DNA of 64,000 bases from Gammaproteobacteria bacterium (GTDB lineage: Bacteria; Pseudomonadota; Gammaproteobacteria; AKS1), in NCBI GenBank assembly GCA_027006175.1, contig JALTKS010000110.1, positions 35,517 through 99,516 on the forward strand. Direction: 5' to 3'. The translations under genes were made by a program, and so were the position numbers. This document shows positions 56,316-63,410 of this stretch, piece by piece (position 1 is the first letter of the stretch; every line of letters starts with the position of its first letter). The notes beneath the pieces were generated by a model that was given only the letters and a program-made list of their open reading frames with translations, did no database searches and was not told the DNA's origin.

Positions 56316-57650
56316 ATGAATCCTGGAATAAAAATGAATAGCGCGGTGTTAGGTTTATGTATGGTGTTAGCTGTACCGGCAATCGCTGCAGATGGATTTA
56401 ATTCTGCTCAGGTCGACGAATTACGTAAACAAGGAAAGGCTAAACAAGCTTATGAGCTAGCACTTAAGTTTCGAGATGATTTTGAGGGCGATGCAAAATT
56501 CGATTTTGCCTATGGTATGGCAGCCGTTGATGCCGGCAAATTAAGTGAAGGTGTTTTAGCACTTGAACGAGTTGTATTAACAACGCCAAAAAATACCCTT
56601 GCTCATCTTGAGTTAGCGCGCGCTTACTTTCTATTGAAAGAAGACACACGTGCAAGACAGGAATTTGACATTGTATTGGCAAAAAATCCGCCCGCTGCAG
56701 TTGTTGCTAACATAAAGAAATTTCTTCGTATTATTCGTTTACGAGAATCTGAATATCGCTCAACCGGATCGGCTTATGTTGATGTGGCGCTTGGCTATGA
56801 CACCAATATTAATAGCGCACCAGCCGATGCAACATTTTTTAGTCCGATTTTAGGGACATTGTCACTGAGTGGGACAGGTTTAGCATCATCGGATGAATTT
56901 TTGAAAGTAACCACTGGCGGTAAATTACTGCATCCTTTTGAACCCGGTAAGCAGTTGCTACTAGGCGCAGATGTGTCGGCACGTTTTAATGCAGACGATG
57001 ATGCCTTTGAAACTGAAACCTGGAATATTTATGCCGGTGTTAAGTGGCGTCAGGGTAAAGATAAATTTGGTATAACGGCGCAAGTACAGGAATTTGAATT
57101 ATCCGATGTTGATAATCGTAGCCTGGTGAGTTTATCAGGTAGCTGGGAGCGTCGTTTAAGTAAACAAACATCATGGTCAACACAATTTCAAGCAGCGCAA
57201 ATTGGTTACCCTGATCAAAGTATTCGTGATGCAACTTTATTTATTGTTGGTACAGGATTAACACATCAATATGCCATGAAGTGGAGACCCACTGTTTCAG
57301 CAAGTACCTACGTTGGGAAACAGTTTGCAAATACTGATACGGAGGCAGCACGTTCATCTGCGCAACGTAAATTCCTGGGCGTCAGGGTGGCAGCACAGGT
57401 TATTCCTACTTCAAGAATGAGCGTCTCAGCTTCCGTTTCTGCAGAAACAAATCATTATCAGGGTGAAAGTATTTTAACAGGTAAAACCAGAAATGAGCAG
57501 TTGTATCAGGTATCTGTTACAGGACGCTATATTATTGATGATAACTGGAGTTTAGGGGCGGGTATATATTACACGCGTAATGATTCTAACCAGGTTATCA
57601 CTGACTACGACAAAACGTTAACTCAGGTGAGTGCACGTTACACGTTTTAA
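56316..57650 (+). CDS. Slam-like TPR/beta-barrel outer-membrane protein (DUF560-type)
   Basis: A 444-residue protein with a signal peptide (about 1-25, ending AIAA). A periplasmic TPR-type domain (about 26-150) carries the Slam-like run FDFAYGMAAVDAGKLSEG, ALERVVLTTPKNTLAHLELARAYF and LAKNPPAAVVANIKKFL. A beta-barrel of about 290 residues follows and ends in the outer-membrane signal ARYTF. This is the architecture of surface lipoprotein assembly modifiers (Slam, type XI secretion). Slam proteins move cargo with TbpB-like barrels across the outer membrane. Two such candidate cargos follow downstream, 47 bases away. I infer a secretion module. Confidence 0.75.
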   Translation: MNPGIKMNSAVLGLCMVLAVPAIAADGFNSAQVDELRKQGKAKQAYELALKFRDDFEGDAKFDFAYGMAAVDAGKLSEGVLALERVVLTTPKNTLAHLELARAYFLLKEDTRARQEFDIVLAKNPPAAVVANIKKFLRIIRLRESEYRSTGSAYVDVALGYDTNINSAPADATFFSPILGTLSLSGTGLASSDEFLKVTTGGKLLHPFEPGKQLLLGADVSARFNADDDAFETETWNIYAGVKWRQGKDKFGITAQVQEFELSDVDNRSLVSLSGSWERRLSKQTSWSTQFQAAQIGYPDQSIRDATLFIVGTGLTHQYAMKWRPTVSASTYVGKQFANTDTEAARSSAQRKFLGVRVAAQVIPTSRMSVSASVSAETNHYQGESILTGKTRNEQLYQVSVTGRYIIDDNWSLGAGIYYTRNDSNQVITDYDKTLTQVSARYTF

Positions 57651-57697
57651 AAGATGTTGCTTATGCTTTAACTATGGCATGAGTGGGAGTTTGAAGT

Positions 57698-59368
57698 ATG
57701 AAACAAAGTAATTTAAAAACAGGGCTAATTGTTTCCCTGTTATGCATATCGTCATTTTCAGTTTCAGCGCAAGCCGCAACAGGCGTTGGCAAAGCCATTA
57801 TCAGTATTGGCAAAGTATTTACAACAAGTAAAGACGGAAAAGAAAAGAAACTCAAACGCCGCGGTAAAGTGTTTGAGGGTGATACAATTAATGTCGGCAA
57901 AAAATCACGTCTGCAACTTCGTTTTATAGATAACCAATTAGTTGTATTAAAAGAAAACACCGTTTTCCGAATTGATGAATACAAATTCAAAGACAAGAAT
58001 GATAATAATAAAAGCGCAGCTTTAAGTCTGTTAAAGGGTGGCATGCGTAGTGTTACCGGTTTAATTGGTAAATCAGCACGTGATAAATACAAAGTAAAAA
58101 CACCGGTAGCAACCATGGGCGTGCGCGGTACGCATTACCTGTTGCAAGTTTGTAGTGGTGATTGTGGTGATGGTGTTAAAGGCCTGGTCGGTACAGTGCT
58201 TGAAGGTGAAATTGAAATGAAGAACGAGGGAGGTACATCTACTTTTGGTACCGATCAATTCTTCAACGTTCCTTCTTCTAATGAAGCCCCACGTACGATG
58301 ACTAACCCGCCGTCCACATTAGTAAGCAAGGCAGAAATAGAATCTGATGATGAGGATTCAGAAGAGAGTAATGATGAAGGCGGTGATGAGGGAGAAGAAA
58401 CCGTGGCATCAGATGATAGTGGTGATGCTCCTGCAGATGATACAACTAGTGATACAGGCACCACAGATGATGGTTCAACAACAACGGATACAACCTTTAC
58501 TAGTGGTGAGCAGACAACGGTAGAAACAACAACAGGTACGGTTGCTACAACAACTGATTTTTATACTGGAACACTGGCACCAACCGGTGCACTAATGGCT
58601 TTTAGCGGAATCATGGACGAGATTGAAGGTGCTGGTGGTATAGCTGGTGTTCAAGGTACTAATGCGGACGCAAATCTTGAGACAGTTAATGGTGTCGGGA
58701 ATCAATTGGTTAATACGTCGATAACCGATGCATTTGGAACAGCAAGTTTTCAGGTGAAAACAGGAGCTGTAGCATCAGATCAAGGCGGTGACCCTGCACT
58801 AGGTATCAATTGGGGGCGTTGGAACGCTGCCGATGTTGAAGTAATTGATCAAACAGGTGCTAGCAAAACCTTATTAACAGGATTGAATTTTATTTATAGT
58901 GATAATCCAACACCCGATTCATTTATTACAAGTTTGATAACGTCACAGGCAGGACTTTATACATTCGGTTTGGTCAATGGACCCGCGATTCTAGATGAGT
59001 CGGGTGGTATAGCGAGTGCATCGTTGTTTATTGACATTGATTTTGGTGTAACGACTACAGGAGTTGGTCAGGTAGTCGACTTTTATGGCGCAATTAATGG
59101 GGCGGATGGACGCGTTTACGATACGTTCATGTTGACATCGTTTGTTGATTTAGTTGATCTGAAAGCAGGATCAGAATTACAGATTACGGGTGTTTGTAGT
59201 GGCGCGGGTGCCTGTGCAACAGCGGTGCCATTAACAGGTTCAGCCGGTGGTGGATTTGTTGGCTCTAATGCGGAAGCATTAATTGGTTACTTTGGCTTGA
59301 ATGATGCATCTGGCACAATCGGTGTTTCAGGTGTTGGTGAGTTTGCTAATCTAGGACCGGGTGGTTAG
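57698..59368 (+). CDS. FecR-domain protein with TbpB-like C-terminal barrel (copy 1)
   Basis: A 556-residue exported protein. A signal peptide ends SAQA (residues 1-25). A FecR-type domain (about 35-175) contains KVFEGDTINVGKKSRLQLRF, LLKGGMRSVTGLIG and TPVATMGVRGTHYLLQVCSGDCG. A very acidic, Thr-rich linker (about 205-300) separates it from a C-terminal domain with GINWGRW, GLNFIYSDNPT and GGGFVGSNAEALIGYFGLND. The closing pattern G.FVG..AE...G.FG resembles the end of TbpB-type barrels handled by Slam proteins. Residues about 26-201 are encoded by DNA almost identical to copy 2. A terminator follows at 59406-59440. Confidence 0.72.
   Translation: MKQSNLKTGLIVSLLCISSFSVSAQAATGVGKAIISIGKVFTTSKDGKEKKLKRRGKVFEGDTINVGKKSRLQLRFIDNQLVVLKENTVFRIDEYKFKDKNDNNKSAALSLLKGGMRSVTGLIGKSARDKYKVKTPVATMGVRGTHYLLQVCSGDCGDGVKGLVGTVLEGEIEMKNEGGTSTFGTDQFFNVPSSNEAPRTMTNPPSTLVSKAEIESDDEDSEESNDEGGDEGEETVASDDSGDAPADDTTSDTGTTDDGSTTTDTTFTSGEQTTVETTTGTVATTTDFYTGTLAPTGALMAFSGIMDEIEGAGGIAGVQGTNADANLETVNGVGNQLVNTSITDAFGTASFQVKTGAVASDQGGDPALGINWGRWNAADVEVIDQTGASKTLLTGLNFIYSDNPTPDSFITSLITSQAGLYTFGLVNGPAILDESGGIASASLFIDIDFGVTTTGVGQVVDFYGAINGADGRVYDTFMLTSFVDLVDLKAGSELQITGVCSGAGACATAVPLTGSAGGGFVGSNAEALIGYFGLNDASGTIGVSGVGEFANLGPGG
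57773..58302 (+). repeat. 530-bp near-identical direct repeat, copy A
   Basis: This block matches 59583-60112 (offset 1810 bases) with two mismatches by my reading: A/G at 58237/60047 and A/G at 58295/60105. It begins just after the signal-peptide codons and ends where the two coding sequences diverge abruptly. It covers the FecR domain of both proteins. Confidence 0.93.
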
Positions 59369-59405
59369 AGTTTTGCTTGTTTAATTTTTAATATTTCAAT
59401 GATAT

Positions 59406-59440
59406 AGCCCGGATAGTGACTTAATTATCCGGGCTTTTTT
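59406..59440 (+). terminator. Rho-independent terminator after FecR copy 1
   Basis: AGCCCGGATA (59406-59415) and TATCCGGGCT (59426-59435) form a perfect 10-bp stem with a 10-base loop, followed by TTTTT. It ends the Slam-FecR1 transcript, so copy 2 likely needs its own promoter or read-through. Confidence 0.92.
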
Positions 59441-59507
59441 ATGGGAAATTTGAATAATAAAAAATAACTACTAGACTTGTAAGGATAAATGCGCCTTAGA
59501 GTACAAA

Positions 59508-61130
59508 ATGAGACAAGACCGGATTAAATCAATTCTAATATTAACGGTATTCATAATGAGTACCATTACATTGCATGCTCACGCCGCAACAGGCGTTGGC
59601 AAAGCCATTATCAGTATTGGCAAAGTATTTACAACAAGTAAAGACGGAAAAGAAAAGAAACTCAAACGCCGCGGTAAAGTGTTTGAGGGTGATACAATTA
59701 ATGTCGGCAAAAAATCACGTCTGCAACTTCGTTTTATAGATAACCAATTAGTTGTATTAAAAGAAAACACCGTTTTCCGAATTGATGAATACAAATTCAA
59801 AGACAAGAATGATAATAATAAAAGCGCAGCTTTAAGTCTGTTAAAGGGTGGCATGCGTAGTGTTACCGGTTTAATTGGTAAATCAGCACGTGATAAATAC
59901 AAAGTAAAAACACCGGTAGCAACCATGGGCGTGCGCGGTACGCATTACCTGTTGCAAGTTTGTAGTGGTGATTGTGGTGATGGTGTTAAAGGCCTGGTCG
60001 GTACAGTGCTTGAAGGTGAAATTGAAATGAAGAACGAGGGAGGTACGTCTACTTTTGGTACCGATCAATTCTTCAACGTTCCTTCTTCTAATGAAGCCCC
60101 ACGTGCGATGACGAATCCTCCTTCTAGTCTTATTAGTCGTGCAGATGTCAAGCAAGATAAAGAAGATGGAGATGATAATGGAAATAAAAAAGGCAAAAAA
60201 GGTAAAAGAACAATAGTTAGAATAGCTAAGTTAGCACCACCAAAAAGGATTGATTCGCTACGCCGGAAAATCACCACTGGTCCCGGTTCACGACTTCCAC
60301 CACCACGAATAAACCCTAGCTTAGATCCTAATGCGACTCCCATTGGATTTATAACGCCGACAACGGCGCCAGCTAATGCTGCACTTGTTATTTCAGGCAT
60401 AAATGCGTCAACAGGGAGTCCGGAGGGGAGTGGTGGGATACAAGATGTAAATTCAACATCAATAGGTATTGCTACAGTGGCAGGCGTTAGTAAGCAGCCT
60501 GTGGCTGCAAATATCGTTGATCCTACTAAGACAGTTACATATGGAGTGCTAAGTAGTGGTATAGCAGTTGGGCAAGGAGGCGACCCATTGGGTGTCAATT
60601 GGGGGCGTTGGCTTAGCACGGATGTGGTCGCTCAAATAGATGGCAATGACCTGAAATTATTAACCGGTATTGCGTTTATATATAGTGAAAATTTAACGTC
60701 CTTAACCGCTATTAGCAATTTGACTAGTTCAACAACATACAACACAGTTGCAGGACCGAGTGTCAGGGATGAAACAGGTGCATTAGTTACAGGTACTTTG
60801 GGGCTTAATATTGATTTTGCTGCGTCAACGATTAGTGGTCTGAGTGGAACATTGACCGGTAATGGTCGTACATATAATGTCGATTTAGATACACCCGGCT
60901 CCTTCCCGCTTTCAGTGTTTTTAGCTGGCGATAAAGTACCAATAATAGCCGGTTGTTCGGGTTGCCCTGATATGATTACTGCTCTACTTGGCGAAGCAGG
61001 TGGCTTGTTTGTAGGATCTGGAGCAGAAGGGTTTATTGGTAGTTTTGGTTTAGGTGGAATTGGTATAACGGGTCAGACAATTGGTATTTCAGGATCAAGA
61101 TTCTTTAAGGCGACGACGCCACCGATGTAA
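59508..61130 (+). CDS. FecR-domain protein with TbpB-like C-terminal barrel (copy 2)
   Basis: A 540-residue paralogue of the gene upstream. The signal peptide differs (IKSILILTVFIMSTITLHAHA). The FecR domain (about 35-175) is identical. The linker (about 205-285) is basic and Pro-rich (KKGKKGKRTIVR, GSRLPPPRI), the opposite charge of copy 1. The C-terminal domain shares only the frame: GVNWGRW, GIAFIYSENLT and GGLFVGSGAEGFIGSFGLGG, with its own Cys pair (CSGC). The nearly identical front and diverged back suggest domain-specific selection after duplication or gene conversion. It faces the CHASE2 cyclase gene nine bases away. Confidence 0.72.
   Translation: MRQDRIKSILILTVFIMSTITLHAHAATGVGKAIISIGKVFTTSKDGKEKKLKRRGKVFEGDTINVGKKSRLQLRFIDNQLVVLKENTVFRIDEYKFKDKNDNNKSAALSLLKGGMRSVTGLIGKSARDKYKVKTPVATMGVRGTHYLLQVCSGDCGDGVKGLVGTVLEGEIEMKNEGGTSTFGTDQFFNVPSSNEAPRAMTNPPSSLISRADVKQDKEDGDDNGNKKGKKGKRTIVRIAKLAPPKRIDSLRRKITTGPGSRLPPPRINPSLDPNATPIGFITPTTAPANAALVISGINASTGSPEGSGGIQDVNSTSIGIATVAGVSKQPVAANIVDPTKTVTYGVLSSGIAVGQGGDPLGVNWGRWLSTDVVAQIDGNDLKLLTGIAFIYSENLTSLTAISNLTSSTTYNTVAGPSVRDETGALVTGTLGLNIDFAASTISGLSGTLTGNGRTYNVDLDTPGSFPLSVFLAGDKVPIIAGCSGCPDMITALLGEAGGLFVGSGAEGFIGSFGLGGIGITGQTIGISGSRFFKATTPPM
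59583..60112 (+). repeat. 530-bp near-identical direct repeat, copy B
   Basis: Second copy of the block at 57773-58302. Two differences in 530 bases include a synonymous Thr codon change. The remaining coding sequence beyond 60112 has no comparable DNA identity. Confidence 0.93.
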
Positions 61131-61139
61131 CGATATAAT

Positions 61140-63410
61140 TTACTTAGTTGTGTGCTCGAAAGTACCATCCCATTCGTCAGTGAGCAGTAATAGATTCATG
61201 CTTGACATACGATCAAGATAAATACTGTAAATCATTCTGTCTGGATCGCTTTCTTTTAGATGTTTGAATAATTTTTTAGCCTCGTCCCATTCTCTTGCAT
61301 AATAGTGATCTAAAGCAGCTTCATGTTGTTCAAGTGATGTTAAAAGAGCATCATCTGCATCACTAACCAAACAGATAGGTTCATAAATAATAACAGGTTC
61401 AGTTTTTCCTTTAACTTGCACTTTATCCAGGCGACGGAATATATAATCATCTTGTCCTTCACGAGTATTCTCACCGACAATAAGTTTAACACCGTACTGT
61501 TTGGTAAGCCCTTCCAGACGAGAAGATAAGTTTACTGCATCACCAAGCACAGTATAGGCACGCCTGAATTCAGATCCCATGTTACCAACGTTCATCATCC
61601 CGGTATTTAAACCAACACCGAGGTTGATAGGAGGATAACCTAAAGCATCCAATTCGGGTTTCATGGCTTCTACTTTAGCAAGCATGGAAAGCGCGCCATC
61701 GATGGCATGTTTGGCATGGTGTTCATCATGCAAAGGTGCACCCCAAAATGCCATAATCATATCACCAACATATTTATCAATCGTGCCATGTTTATTAAAG
61801 ATAATTTCAGTCATTGGTGTGAAGAACCGGTTTAACATATCTTTAAGTTCGGTAGGAGAAAGAGATTCACTAATAGTTGTGAAGCTACGTATATCTGCAA
61901 ATAACACTGTCATTTCACGCCGGTCACCTTCAAAGCCAAGGTCCTCATCAGATTCCAGCATTTGATCAACGAGTGCGGGAGGGATATATTGTCCAAACTG
62001 GTCGCGTAAATGTTTTTTACCTTTAGATTCAAAGATAAAACCATAAGCAAGGTTAGACATGGATAAGATGACAATCATCATTAACGGACTGGCAACAGCA
62101 ACGACGAAATTATATTCATTCCATAGCCAGATATTAAAACTTAACAAGCTTCCAGCACTGCTAACAAAAAATAAAATAGAATATAGCGGGCTTAAAAATG
62201 GCAATGTAATAGCAAGGATAAGCCCTAACACAAGGGTGATAACAAAATTAAGGCCTTGTGCCCAATCAGGTTCAGCAGGAAAAGTCAGTTGAGTGAAAGT
62301 TTCATCTTGGGTAACACCAGAGACTTCGCTTGAATCGATAATACCTGCTGCGATGCTGGCATGAATTTCAACCCCCGGATAAATTTGATTTACGGGTGTT
62401 GCTTTAAGATCATTTAAGCCGGTTGCGGTTGCACCAATAAAAGCGATAGTACTTTCAAGTTTGGCCAATTTTTCAGGTGCAACTTTATCATTAAGGATGT
62501 CGGAGGCTGAAAAATAGTTAAAACTAAAGGCAGGGCCTCTAAAGGGTACTAAAACGGCACCGATGCCATCAGTAGGCACCTCAACCACATCAAGCGATAA
62601 ATATTCCATGGCGTTAATATTACCAATAGGTGCTGTTTTAATCGTGACCTCTTCACTGGCATAAAATAAGCGCACTGCCTCTAATGCCAAAGAAGGATAA
62701 AAATTACCTTTATATTCATAAATAAGGCTGGCACGTCGTATAACGCCATCAGCGTCTGGGTCGACTGAAAGAAAGCCGCCAAAATTAGCAACACTTTGCA
62801 AAATATCGAGATTGGATAGAAAGCCATCTTGATTAAGAATACTGGTGTTGCCTAGTTCGGGAAGGTTAGTAACATTAAGTGGTGTGCCTATTACACCATA
62901 TTCTTCGTTATCATTGAGAAATGCATAGCCAAGTACAATATCTTTATCGAGCATGCTTGTGGCGAGAGCAACATCACCATCAATTTGATCGGCAATATTG
63001 ATCAGCGTTTCAGTAACAAGTTCATCAACTTTTACACCCTCAAGAAGATCCAGAATAGTGATAGCCGGATTTGCCTCAGGTTCAGAAAAAATAATATCGA
63101 AGACGGTAACGATGACACCGGCTTCAGTCAGCTTTTGTGTTAGCCGGGCAATTTTTTCGCGGGGCCAGGGCCAGCGACCTTCTTCAGATAAGGATTTGTC
63201 ATCAATATCAATAATAACGATATTTTCATGAGGAGTAGGGTTATCCGGAAGCGTAAACTGGAGGCGGAGATCATAGGCAATCCATTCCATACGATCACGT
63301 AGCTTAGAGATAAAGCTATTATCAGTAAGCTGAAAAACAAGAGAAAAGGCGACAAGACCAATACCAATGGTGATCGGTAGTACATGCCTTCGCAATTGAG
63401 TGTTAGTCAT
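61140..63410 (-). CDS. CHASE2-domain class III adenylate cyclase
   Basis: A 756-residue membrane cyclase. An N-terminal helix (LPITIGIGLVAFSLVFQL) leads to a periplasmic CHASE2 sensor (about 40-380; IVIIDIDDKSLSEEGRWPWPR, GATATGLNDLKATPVNQIYPGVEIHA). Three helices (about 395-470) precede the catalytic domain: VLFADIRSFTTISE (metal Asp), GTIDKYVGDMIMAFWGAP (second metal Asp; Lys for adenine) and VGNMGSEFRRAYTVLGDAVNLSSRLEG. The residues fit an active adenylate rather than guanylate cyclase. The signal sensed is unknown. FecR-domain proteins often neighbour CHASE2 cyclases, which supports a functional link. Confidence 0.9.
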   Translation of the reverse strand: MTNTQLRRHVLPITIGIGLVAFSLVFQLTDNSFISKLRDRMEWIAYDLRLQFTLPDNPTPHENIVIIDIDDKSLSEEGRWPWPREKIARLTQKLTEAGVIVTVFDIIFSEPEANPAITILDLLEGVKVDELVTETLINIADQIDGDVALATSMLDKDIVLGYAFLNDNEEYGVIGTPLNVTNLPELGNTSILNQDGFLSNLDILQSVANFGGFLSVDPDADGVIRRASLIYEYKGNFYPSLALEAVRLFYASEEVTIKTAPIGNINAMEYLSLDVVEVPTDGIGAVLVPFRGPAFSFNYFSASDILNDKVAPEKLAKLESTIAFIGATATGLNDLKATPVNQIYPGVEIHASIAAGIIDSSEVSGVTQDETFTQLTFPAEPDWAQGLNFVITLVLGLILAITLPFLSPLYSILFFVSSAGSLLSFNIWLWNEYNFVVAVASPLMMIVILSMSNLAYGFIFESKGKKHLRDQFGQYIPPALVDQMLESDEDLGFEGDRREMTVLFADIRSFTTISESLSPTELKDMLNRFFTPMTEIIFNKHGTIDKYVGDMIMAFWGAPLHDEHHAKHAIDGALSMLAKVEAMKPELDALGYPPINLGVGLNTGMMNVGNMGSEFRRAYTVLGDAVNLSSRLEGLTKQYGVKLIVGENTREGQDDYIFRRLDKVQVKGKTEPVIIYEPICLVSDADDALLTSLEQHEAALDHYYAREWDEAKKLFKHLKESDPDRMIYSIYLDRMSSMNLLLLTDEWDGTFEHTTK

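Follow-up and report, generated by a model that had tools for sequence, protein, structure and literature searches.

Type 11 secretion has been described as an exporter of nutrient binders and adhesins in host-associated bacteria, and most of its environmental branches have, to our knowledge, no known cargo. The FecR domain is normally a periplasmic signalling part, and the signals of CHASE2 cyclases are, so far as we are aware, mostly unknown. The exporter of type 11 secretion, Slam, consists of a TPR domain and a 14-strand DUF560 barrel (PMC5449769); purified Slam1 suffices to translocate unfolded TbpB through a membrane (PMC9090332), and the barrel of TbpB is the first part to appear at the surface (PMC9100927). 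In Sinorhizobium meliloti, the outer-membrane beta-barrel protein NsrA is reported to transmit a signal from a protein to CHASE2 cyclases (PMC7529298, PMC13001267). A FecR gene of that organism, smc02177, lies near the cyclase gene cyaD1 and is not required for the plant signal that was tested (PMC5498481).

The locus described here lies in a window of 64,000 nucleotides (the whole stretch of DNA analyzed) from a gammaproteobacterial contig (C110). Three plus-strand open reading frames, at 56316-57650, 57698-59368 and 59508-61130, are real; they bear out the range of the original prediction (56316-61130) and the 47 bases that it counted between the exporter gene and the gene for cargo 1. A CHASE2 cyclase gene absent from that prediction adjoins the gene for cargo 2; the prediction likewise overlooked that the two FecR-coding blocks are nearly identical in DNA and that a hairpin lies between the cargo genes. 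The features are:

56316-57650, plus strand: Slam-family (type 11 secretion, PF04575/DUF560) outer-membrane protein, with signal peptide, TPR domain (residues ~30-144) and 14-strand barrel (residues ~150-443)
57698-59368, plus strand: cargo 1, with signal peptide, FecR domain, acidic linker and putative C-terminal TbpB-like barrel domain (FecR match, barrel profile, alignments)
57767-58314, plus strand: FecR-coding block of cargo 1 (DNA identity with the cargo 2 block 98.5%)
59406-59435, plus strand: strong hairpin resembling an intrinsic terminator (12 pairs followed by a T run), located between the two cargo genes
59508-61130, plus strand: cargo 2, with signal peptide, FecR domain, basic disordered linker, strands and 8 predicted barrel strands (~residues 408-535; AlphaFold, Foldseek, slam_lipo)
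59577-60124, plus strand: the corresponding FecR-coding block of cargo 2 (98.5% DNA identity with cargo 1), with diverged flanking signal peptide and barrel
61140-63410, minus strand: CHASE2 sensor with adenylate/guanylate cyclase, transcribed toward the cargo genes; probable partner in signalling (domain scores, recurrent proximity)

Lying between the two cargo genes, the hairpin and T run may uncouple their expression.

The exporter had been called Slam-like, with a search against PF04575 proposed as the check. Scored against the whole profile, it reaches 31.2 bits with SlipAM (PF04575; cut-off 22) over profile positions 11-288, and hmmscan finds SlipAM in 52 of its 66 aligned relatives (20-38% identical to it), at best with 4.4e-19. 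Plain hmmscan missed SlipAM in the window exporter itself and gave BBP2_2 instead; despite this miss, the whole-profile score and the presence of SlipAM in the relatives settle its Slam identity. By hmmscan its N-terminus matches TPR_16 and TPR_19, and TPR_Slam is found in 22 of the 66 relatives (best 4.3e-6). The AlphaFold model, built from the alignment of 66, has a mean pLDDT of 94.3, with eight helices and 14 long strands. Its best fold match in the PDB is BcsC, a TPR-barrel channel, followed by OmpG, a 14-strand porin; no Slam structure is among the PDB fold matches listed for it. Both parts of the Slam architecture (PMC5449769) are thus present in the model. An identity as an EpsL or PEP-CTERM porin was rejected, TIGR03014 scoring 29 of 275 bits. 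With SlipAM above cut-off, a TPR domain and a 14-strand model, and with no sign of an unrelated family, it is well supported that the exporter belongs to the Slam (type 11 secretion) family. Its translation ends in ARYTF, as originally read.

The cargos had been read as FecR domains joined to a TbpB-type barrel that ends in the pattern G.FVG..AE...G.FG, and both fit this pattern, with GGGFVGSNAEALIGYFGL and GGLFVGSGAEGFIGSFGL. In the AlphaFold model of cargo 2 (55 relatives; model residue 1 is protein residue 27) a confident FecR domain (model residues 1-175) is followed by a disordered linker (185-259), by further strands, possibly a handle or pedestal, and by eight C-terminal strands (382-509). 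Foldseek matches this model with TbpB (9e-7), the TbpB C-lobe, NHBA, the FecR-type anti-sigma factor 4m0n and PupR 6ovk. The slam_lipo profile matches cargo 2 (E 0.003) and 10 of 55 cargos (best 2.3e-9), and TbpB_B_D matches 3 of 55. When a profile of the 55 cargo C-termini was compared with the PDB, TbpB (5.9e-6 and 2.7e-5) and LbpB (0.0017) were found, with marginal matches to NHBA (0.14), a TbpB-like solute binder (1.6) and hemophilin (2.4). Structure prediction, which had been proposed as the check, yields the expected eight strands and no other fold, and it is supported that the predicted C-terminal domain is a TbpB-like 8-strand domain with TbpB, LbpB and NHBA as its nearest neighbors. 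Tandem barrels, two to four behind one FecR domain, occur at five loci (L076, L105, L115, L116 and L125), where every barrel match sits in a FecR protein; they were detected outside the training stretches of a purpose-built barrel profile, which was trained on most cargos and whose scores are partly circular. By eye the signal peptides of the cargos look like type I (A-x-A site, no lipobox), and lipobox-like signal peptides occur in 2 of 65 cargos. This part of the original prediction stands as an observation but not as a novelty, since non-lipidated cargos of type 11 secretion have already been described (PMC9100927, PMC12282271).

A second Slam gene in the same genome (contig C6) is followed by a secreted protein without FecR that matches TbpB_B_D above cut-off, and the same pair occurs in a congeneric genome (L015). 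Such a neighbor is expected if this Slam branch exports barrels of this type. The direct profile match between the second-locus cargo and the barrels of the FecR cargos is weak (probability 7%, E 0.005), and their kinship therefore rests on the resemblance of both to TbpB and slam_lipo. Other FecR genes of this genome adjoin loci for two-partner secretion and for a TolC-type exporter.

Both cargos score above the PF04773 cut-off of 24 (49.3 bits for cargo 1, 48.8 for cargo 2), in agreement with the original assignment of FecR domains. In 99.5% of cargo pairs the FecR domains are more alike than the barrels (mean identities 0.417 and 0.275), and FecR is, by these sequence comparisons, the constrained, constant part of the cargos. 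In the window, the FecR blocks of cargos 1 and 2 are 98.5% identical in DNA over 548 bases, with one difference in a core of ~520 bases, whereas the signal peptides differ and the barrels are ~40% identical. The near-identity of the blocks looks like gene conversion. In a second genome (G221, L190) the trend is the same, with 71% identity for FecR and 36% for the barrel. The N-terminal half of the FecR domain also resembles a cell-surface anchoring domain, 5ix9, over 63 residues at 1.2 A (Foldseek, TM(target) 0.78), and profile comparison also pairs it with 5ix9, at 7e-4. It is similar, too, to the LapA-type retention module. The family profile of that module, NF033682, gives 27 bits against a cut-off of 50, and 52 of 55 cargos match it at E <= 0.1; free-standing FecR proteins match it as well. 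The score being below cut-off and the likeness being common to free-standing FecR proteins, it is not specific support for retention. No paper joining FecR with a retention module was found among the open papers searched.

The pairing of exporter and cargo was followed across genomes, as had been proposed. A scan of 84,980 species genomes gave 363 exporter relatives, and among the best 80 of the 363 loci, which were kept and are mostly beta- and gammaproteobacterial, a FecR gene adjoins the exporter gene on the same strand in 80 of 80 (79 downstream, 1 upstream). Adjacency this regular in 80 related loci is more than chance, and the two genes thus co-occur in strict pairing, as the original prediction required. 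In 276 genomes of the class, a barrel is detected within 6 kb downstream of 32 of 42 strong exporters, and 31 genomes have both exporter and barrel against 6 and 5 with only one of the two (Fisher p 8e-30, a value that overstates independence since the genomes are related). Among the strong exporters without a detected barrel, L186 and L192 have one by eye that the profile missed, L216 has its FecR-barrel gene upstream of the exporter, and some sit at contig ends; L184, L185 and L188 are Slam-FecR loci whose FecR proteins have no detectable barrel. The exporter branch is found mainly in environmental beta- and gammaproteobacteria, and cultured carriers of the pair include Marinobacterium arenosum (L071), Azospira oryzae (L131) and Methylovorus sp. 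MM2 (L089). The M. arenosum locus combines a Slam gene, a FecR-barrel gene and a CHASE2 cyclase gene.

The cyclase beside cargo 2 scores 185.9 bits for CHASE2 and 79.7 bits for Guanylate_cyc. Among the matches listed, at least 15 of the 42 strong exporters have a CHASE2 gene within 10 kb, compared with 0.85 expected from gene density, and no such gene is listed for the other 27. CHASE2 genes are present in 37 of 37 genomes with strong exporters and in 157 of 276 overall (p 1.4e-10 among the matches listed; the genomes are related, so that the value overstates independence). When module loci with a CHASE2 neighbor were fetched, 25 of 26 encoded a full-length CHASE2 cyclase; at L063 a stop interrupts the frame. 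The order cyclase-Slam-FecR on one strand, with the cyclase first, is seen at five loci (L079, L105, L192, L220 and L221), and FecR followed by the cyclase on one strand at L063; the cyclase is convergent, as in the window, at L190, L193 and L217, and divergent at L189, L191 and L216. There is thus no single arrangement, convergent, divergent and same-strand cyclases all occurring. On a tree of 45 cyclases, adjacency to the module needs at least 6 gains or losses; the association thus recurs in several cyclase lineages, and the idea of one CHASE2 cyclase clade reserved for the module is rejected. A census of the other neighbor families tallied gave no third recurrent partner, only Glyco_transf_41 turning up, in 4 of 89 proteins.

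Taken together, the Slam-FecR pair with its frequent CHASE2 neighbor suggests a trans-outer-membrane sensor or adhesin system. We propose that the module is a type 11 (Slam) secretion system with FecR-barrel fusion cargos, whose barrel would be surfaced and whose FecR domain would be periplasmic, with a relay to a CHASE2 cyclase; to this reading as a whole we give an even chance. Sec would take the cargos into the periplasm, where the Slam-family protein would recognize the C-terminal 8-strand barrel and deliver it to the surface ahead of the rest of the protein. The FecR domain, behind its disordered linker, would remain at the periplasmic face, turning the cargo into a surface receptor or tether that spans the outer membrane. 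Via FecR, the surface barrel would report its state to a CHASE2 adenylate/guanylate cyclase of the inner membrane, whose gene lies close to the module or at another place in the genome, and cAMP would change. The parts of this proposal differ in strength. Export of the cargo by Slam is likely from what is known of the Slam family (PMC9090332, PMC9100927). With the barrel leading and FecR coming last and folding in the periplasm, a surface barrel would be tied to a periplasmic FecR domain; that FecR stays behind in this way is a prospect that we rate just short of even. Signalling through CHASE2 may likewise occur, with slightly less than even confidence on our part, cAMP signalling being the most economical reading of the recurrent CHASE2 cyclase. 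Observations that run against the mechanism are the 27 strong exporters with no CHASE2 gene listed within 10 kb, the varying arrangement of the cyclase genes, the few Slam-FecR loci with barrel-less FecR proteins and the dispensability of smc02177 for the plant signal tested (PMC5498481).

In ordinary type 11 export the whole protein, soluble or surface-bound, would be exported, and FecR would be a surface effector (an adhesin or ligand binder) that takes no part in trans-envelope signalling. Known cargos do consist of an N-terminal effector and a C-terminal barrel, many of them non-lipidated (PMC12282271, PMC9100927); the FecR region resembles, below cut-offs, the Leptospira surface proteins Lsa33 and LipL45; and the tandem barrels recall the multi-barrel cargos of Sphingomonas and Psychrobacter (PMC12282271). 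However, a FecR domain that is better conserved than the barrel and homogenized between paralogs is the opposite of a variable effector, the FecR genes beside two-partner and TolC-type loci in the same genome suggest a periplasmic role, and the CHASE2 association is left unexplained, so that we regard this alternative as rather unlikely. The CHASE2 association of the exporters would be accommodated if nothing were secreted and the FecR-barrel protein were wholly periplasmic, an adaptor between an NsrA-like receptor Slam and the CHASE2 cyclase. Such an arrangement would recall S. meliloti, where NsrA is reported to feed CHASE2 cyclases (PMC13001267, PMC7529298) and smc02177 lies near cyaD1 (PMC5498481). 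It is nevertheless improbable, as exported Slam cargos carry barrels of this type, the genome's sister Slam has as its partner a barrel protein devoid of FecR, and an adaptor has no need for a TbpB-type barrel, tandem copies of which are hard to explain.

A FecIRA-type cell-surface signalling system, in which FecR releases an ECF sigma factor, is what the PF04773 match and the Foldseek likeness to PupR 6ovk and anti-sigma 4m0n would bring to mind. In the cargos, however, the cleavable-type signal peptide runs straight into FecR and leaves neither a cytoplasmic anti-sigma domain nor a membrane helix, and none was detected by inspection of the sequence and domain search. None of the 12 sigma70_r4_2 matches lies on the contig of the window, which upholds the original statement that the window has no fecI-type gene, and no recurrent sigma family is among the neighbor families listed near exporters. 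A FecI-type sigma factor is rejected on architecture and neighborhood, the architecture alone coming close to refuting it, and we hold this reading to be extremely improbable; where the original prediction named such a factor as the usual partner of FecR, the neighborhood suggests a CHASE2 adenylate/guanylate cyclase instead.

If the proposed type 11 secretion of a receptor with a periplasmic FecR domain is correct, it would constitute an outside-to-inside signalling route that uses neither a TonB-dependent receptor nor a sigma factor. FecR would then also serve surface-protein exporters in general as a partner in the periplasm, with type 11, two-partner and TolC-type loci as the examples from one genome. 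Type 11 secretion may here build receptors, with a surface barrel and a periplasmic FecR domain, that span the outer membrane and drive cAMP via CHASE2 cyclases, a tentative suggestion that we advance with well under even confidence. One environmental type 11 branch gains a definite class of cargos, strictly paired with the exporter and equipped with a domain of signalling type, and CHASE2 cyclases gain, in the FecR-barrel cargo, a candidate ligand-binding partner; the prediction is testable with few genes. FecR-barrel cargos appear to be new within type 11 secretion, judging by the main texts of type 11 cargo papers, which make no mention of them: FecR, CHASE2 and cyclase are absent from the main text of the 2025 cargo survey (PMC12282271), and the main texts of open papers yielded no FecR cargo of Slam, type 11 secretion or DUF560.

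Compared with described systems, the module shares separate features with each. Like the FecR/PupR anti-sigma regulators it has the FecR domain fold (4m0n, 6ovk), but its cargos lack their cytoplasmic anti-sigma domain, membrane helix and nearby sigma factor. The N-terminal half of FecR matches the N-terminal retention module of LapA/MpAFP (5ix9) by fold and profile, whereas the cargos stay below the NF033682 cut-off (27 of 50 bits) and the exporter is a Slam and not a type 1 system. In the Burkholderia BiofilmReg operon (response regulator, LysM-FecR, CHASE2 histidine kinase) a FecR gene likewise adjoins a CHASE2 sensor, with LysM in place of the barrel, a kinase in place of the cyclase and no Slam described (PMC5192318). 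The S. meliloti NsrA-CyaD1/D2/K system also has an outer-membrane barrel upstream of CHASE2 cyclases and a FecR gene near cyaD1 (PMC5498481, PMC13001267); in these papers NsrA is not described as a Slam, nor SMc02177 as having a barrel. Type 11 secretion itself (Slam/TXISS, with TbpB, LbpB, hemophilin and NilC-type cargos) is alike in setting a TPR and 14-strand barrel protein beside cargos with a C-terminal 8-strand barrel, and the module of the window differs from it in the FecR N-terminus of its cargos, its environmental exporter branch and its link to a CHASE2 cyclase.

The two cargo genes of the window, each coding for a FecR domain joined to a C-terminal TbpB-like barrel, share FecR-coding DNA (57767-58314 and 59577-60124) that is nearly identical and sharply bounded, while the remainder of both genes has diverged; this looks like the product of gene conversion. 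A further arrangement of cargo domains is found in a comparison locus (L190:6325-13668), where the members of a tandem pair each carry one FecR domain followed by several barrels (about four in one and about three in the other), with a convergent CHASE2 cyclase gene beyond them.

The genome of the window (G000) carries a second Slam-family gene on contig C6 (L180:6230-8755), downstream of which is encoded a secreted protein of 394 residues that has no FecR domain and scores above the cut-off of the TbpB_B_D barrel profile; such a pair is also present in a congeneric genome (L015). Further FecR genes of G000 on contigs C38 (L224:2373-12813) and C69 (L181) adjoin, respectively, a two-partner secretion locus, consisting of a ShlB-type exporter and a TPS protein of 2670 residues, and a TolC-type protein accompanied by a cadherin/Ig-domain fragment; within this single genome, FecR thus adjoins exporters of three different types.

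Glyco_transf_41 (O-GlcNAc-transferase-like) proteins, which account for 4 of the 89 neighbour proteins of modules in loci L060-L139, might modify the surface proteins. CHASE2 genes also recur in pairs a few kb apart (L195, L196, L197, L199, L208-L211 and L213), one encoding a cyclase of about 750 residues and the other a protein of 850-1020 residues. Possible cAMP outputs adjoin the Slam-FecR-CHASE2 module (L191:129-1652 and L192:10954-13437): a Ser/Thr kinase of the cyclic-nucleotide-binding type, and an oxidoreductase that also contains domains for cyclic-nucleotide binding.
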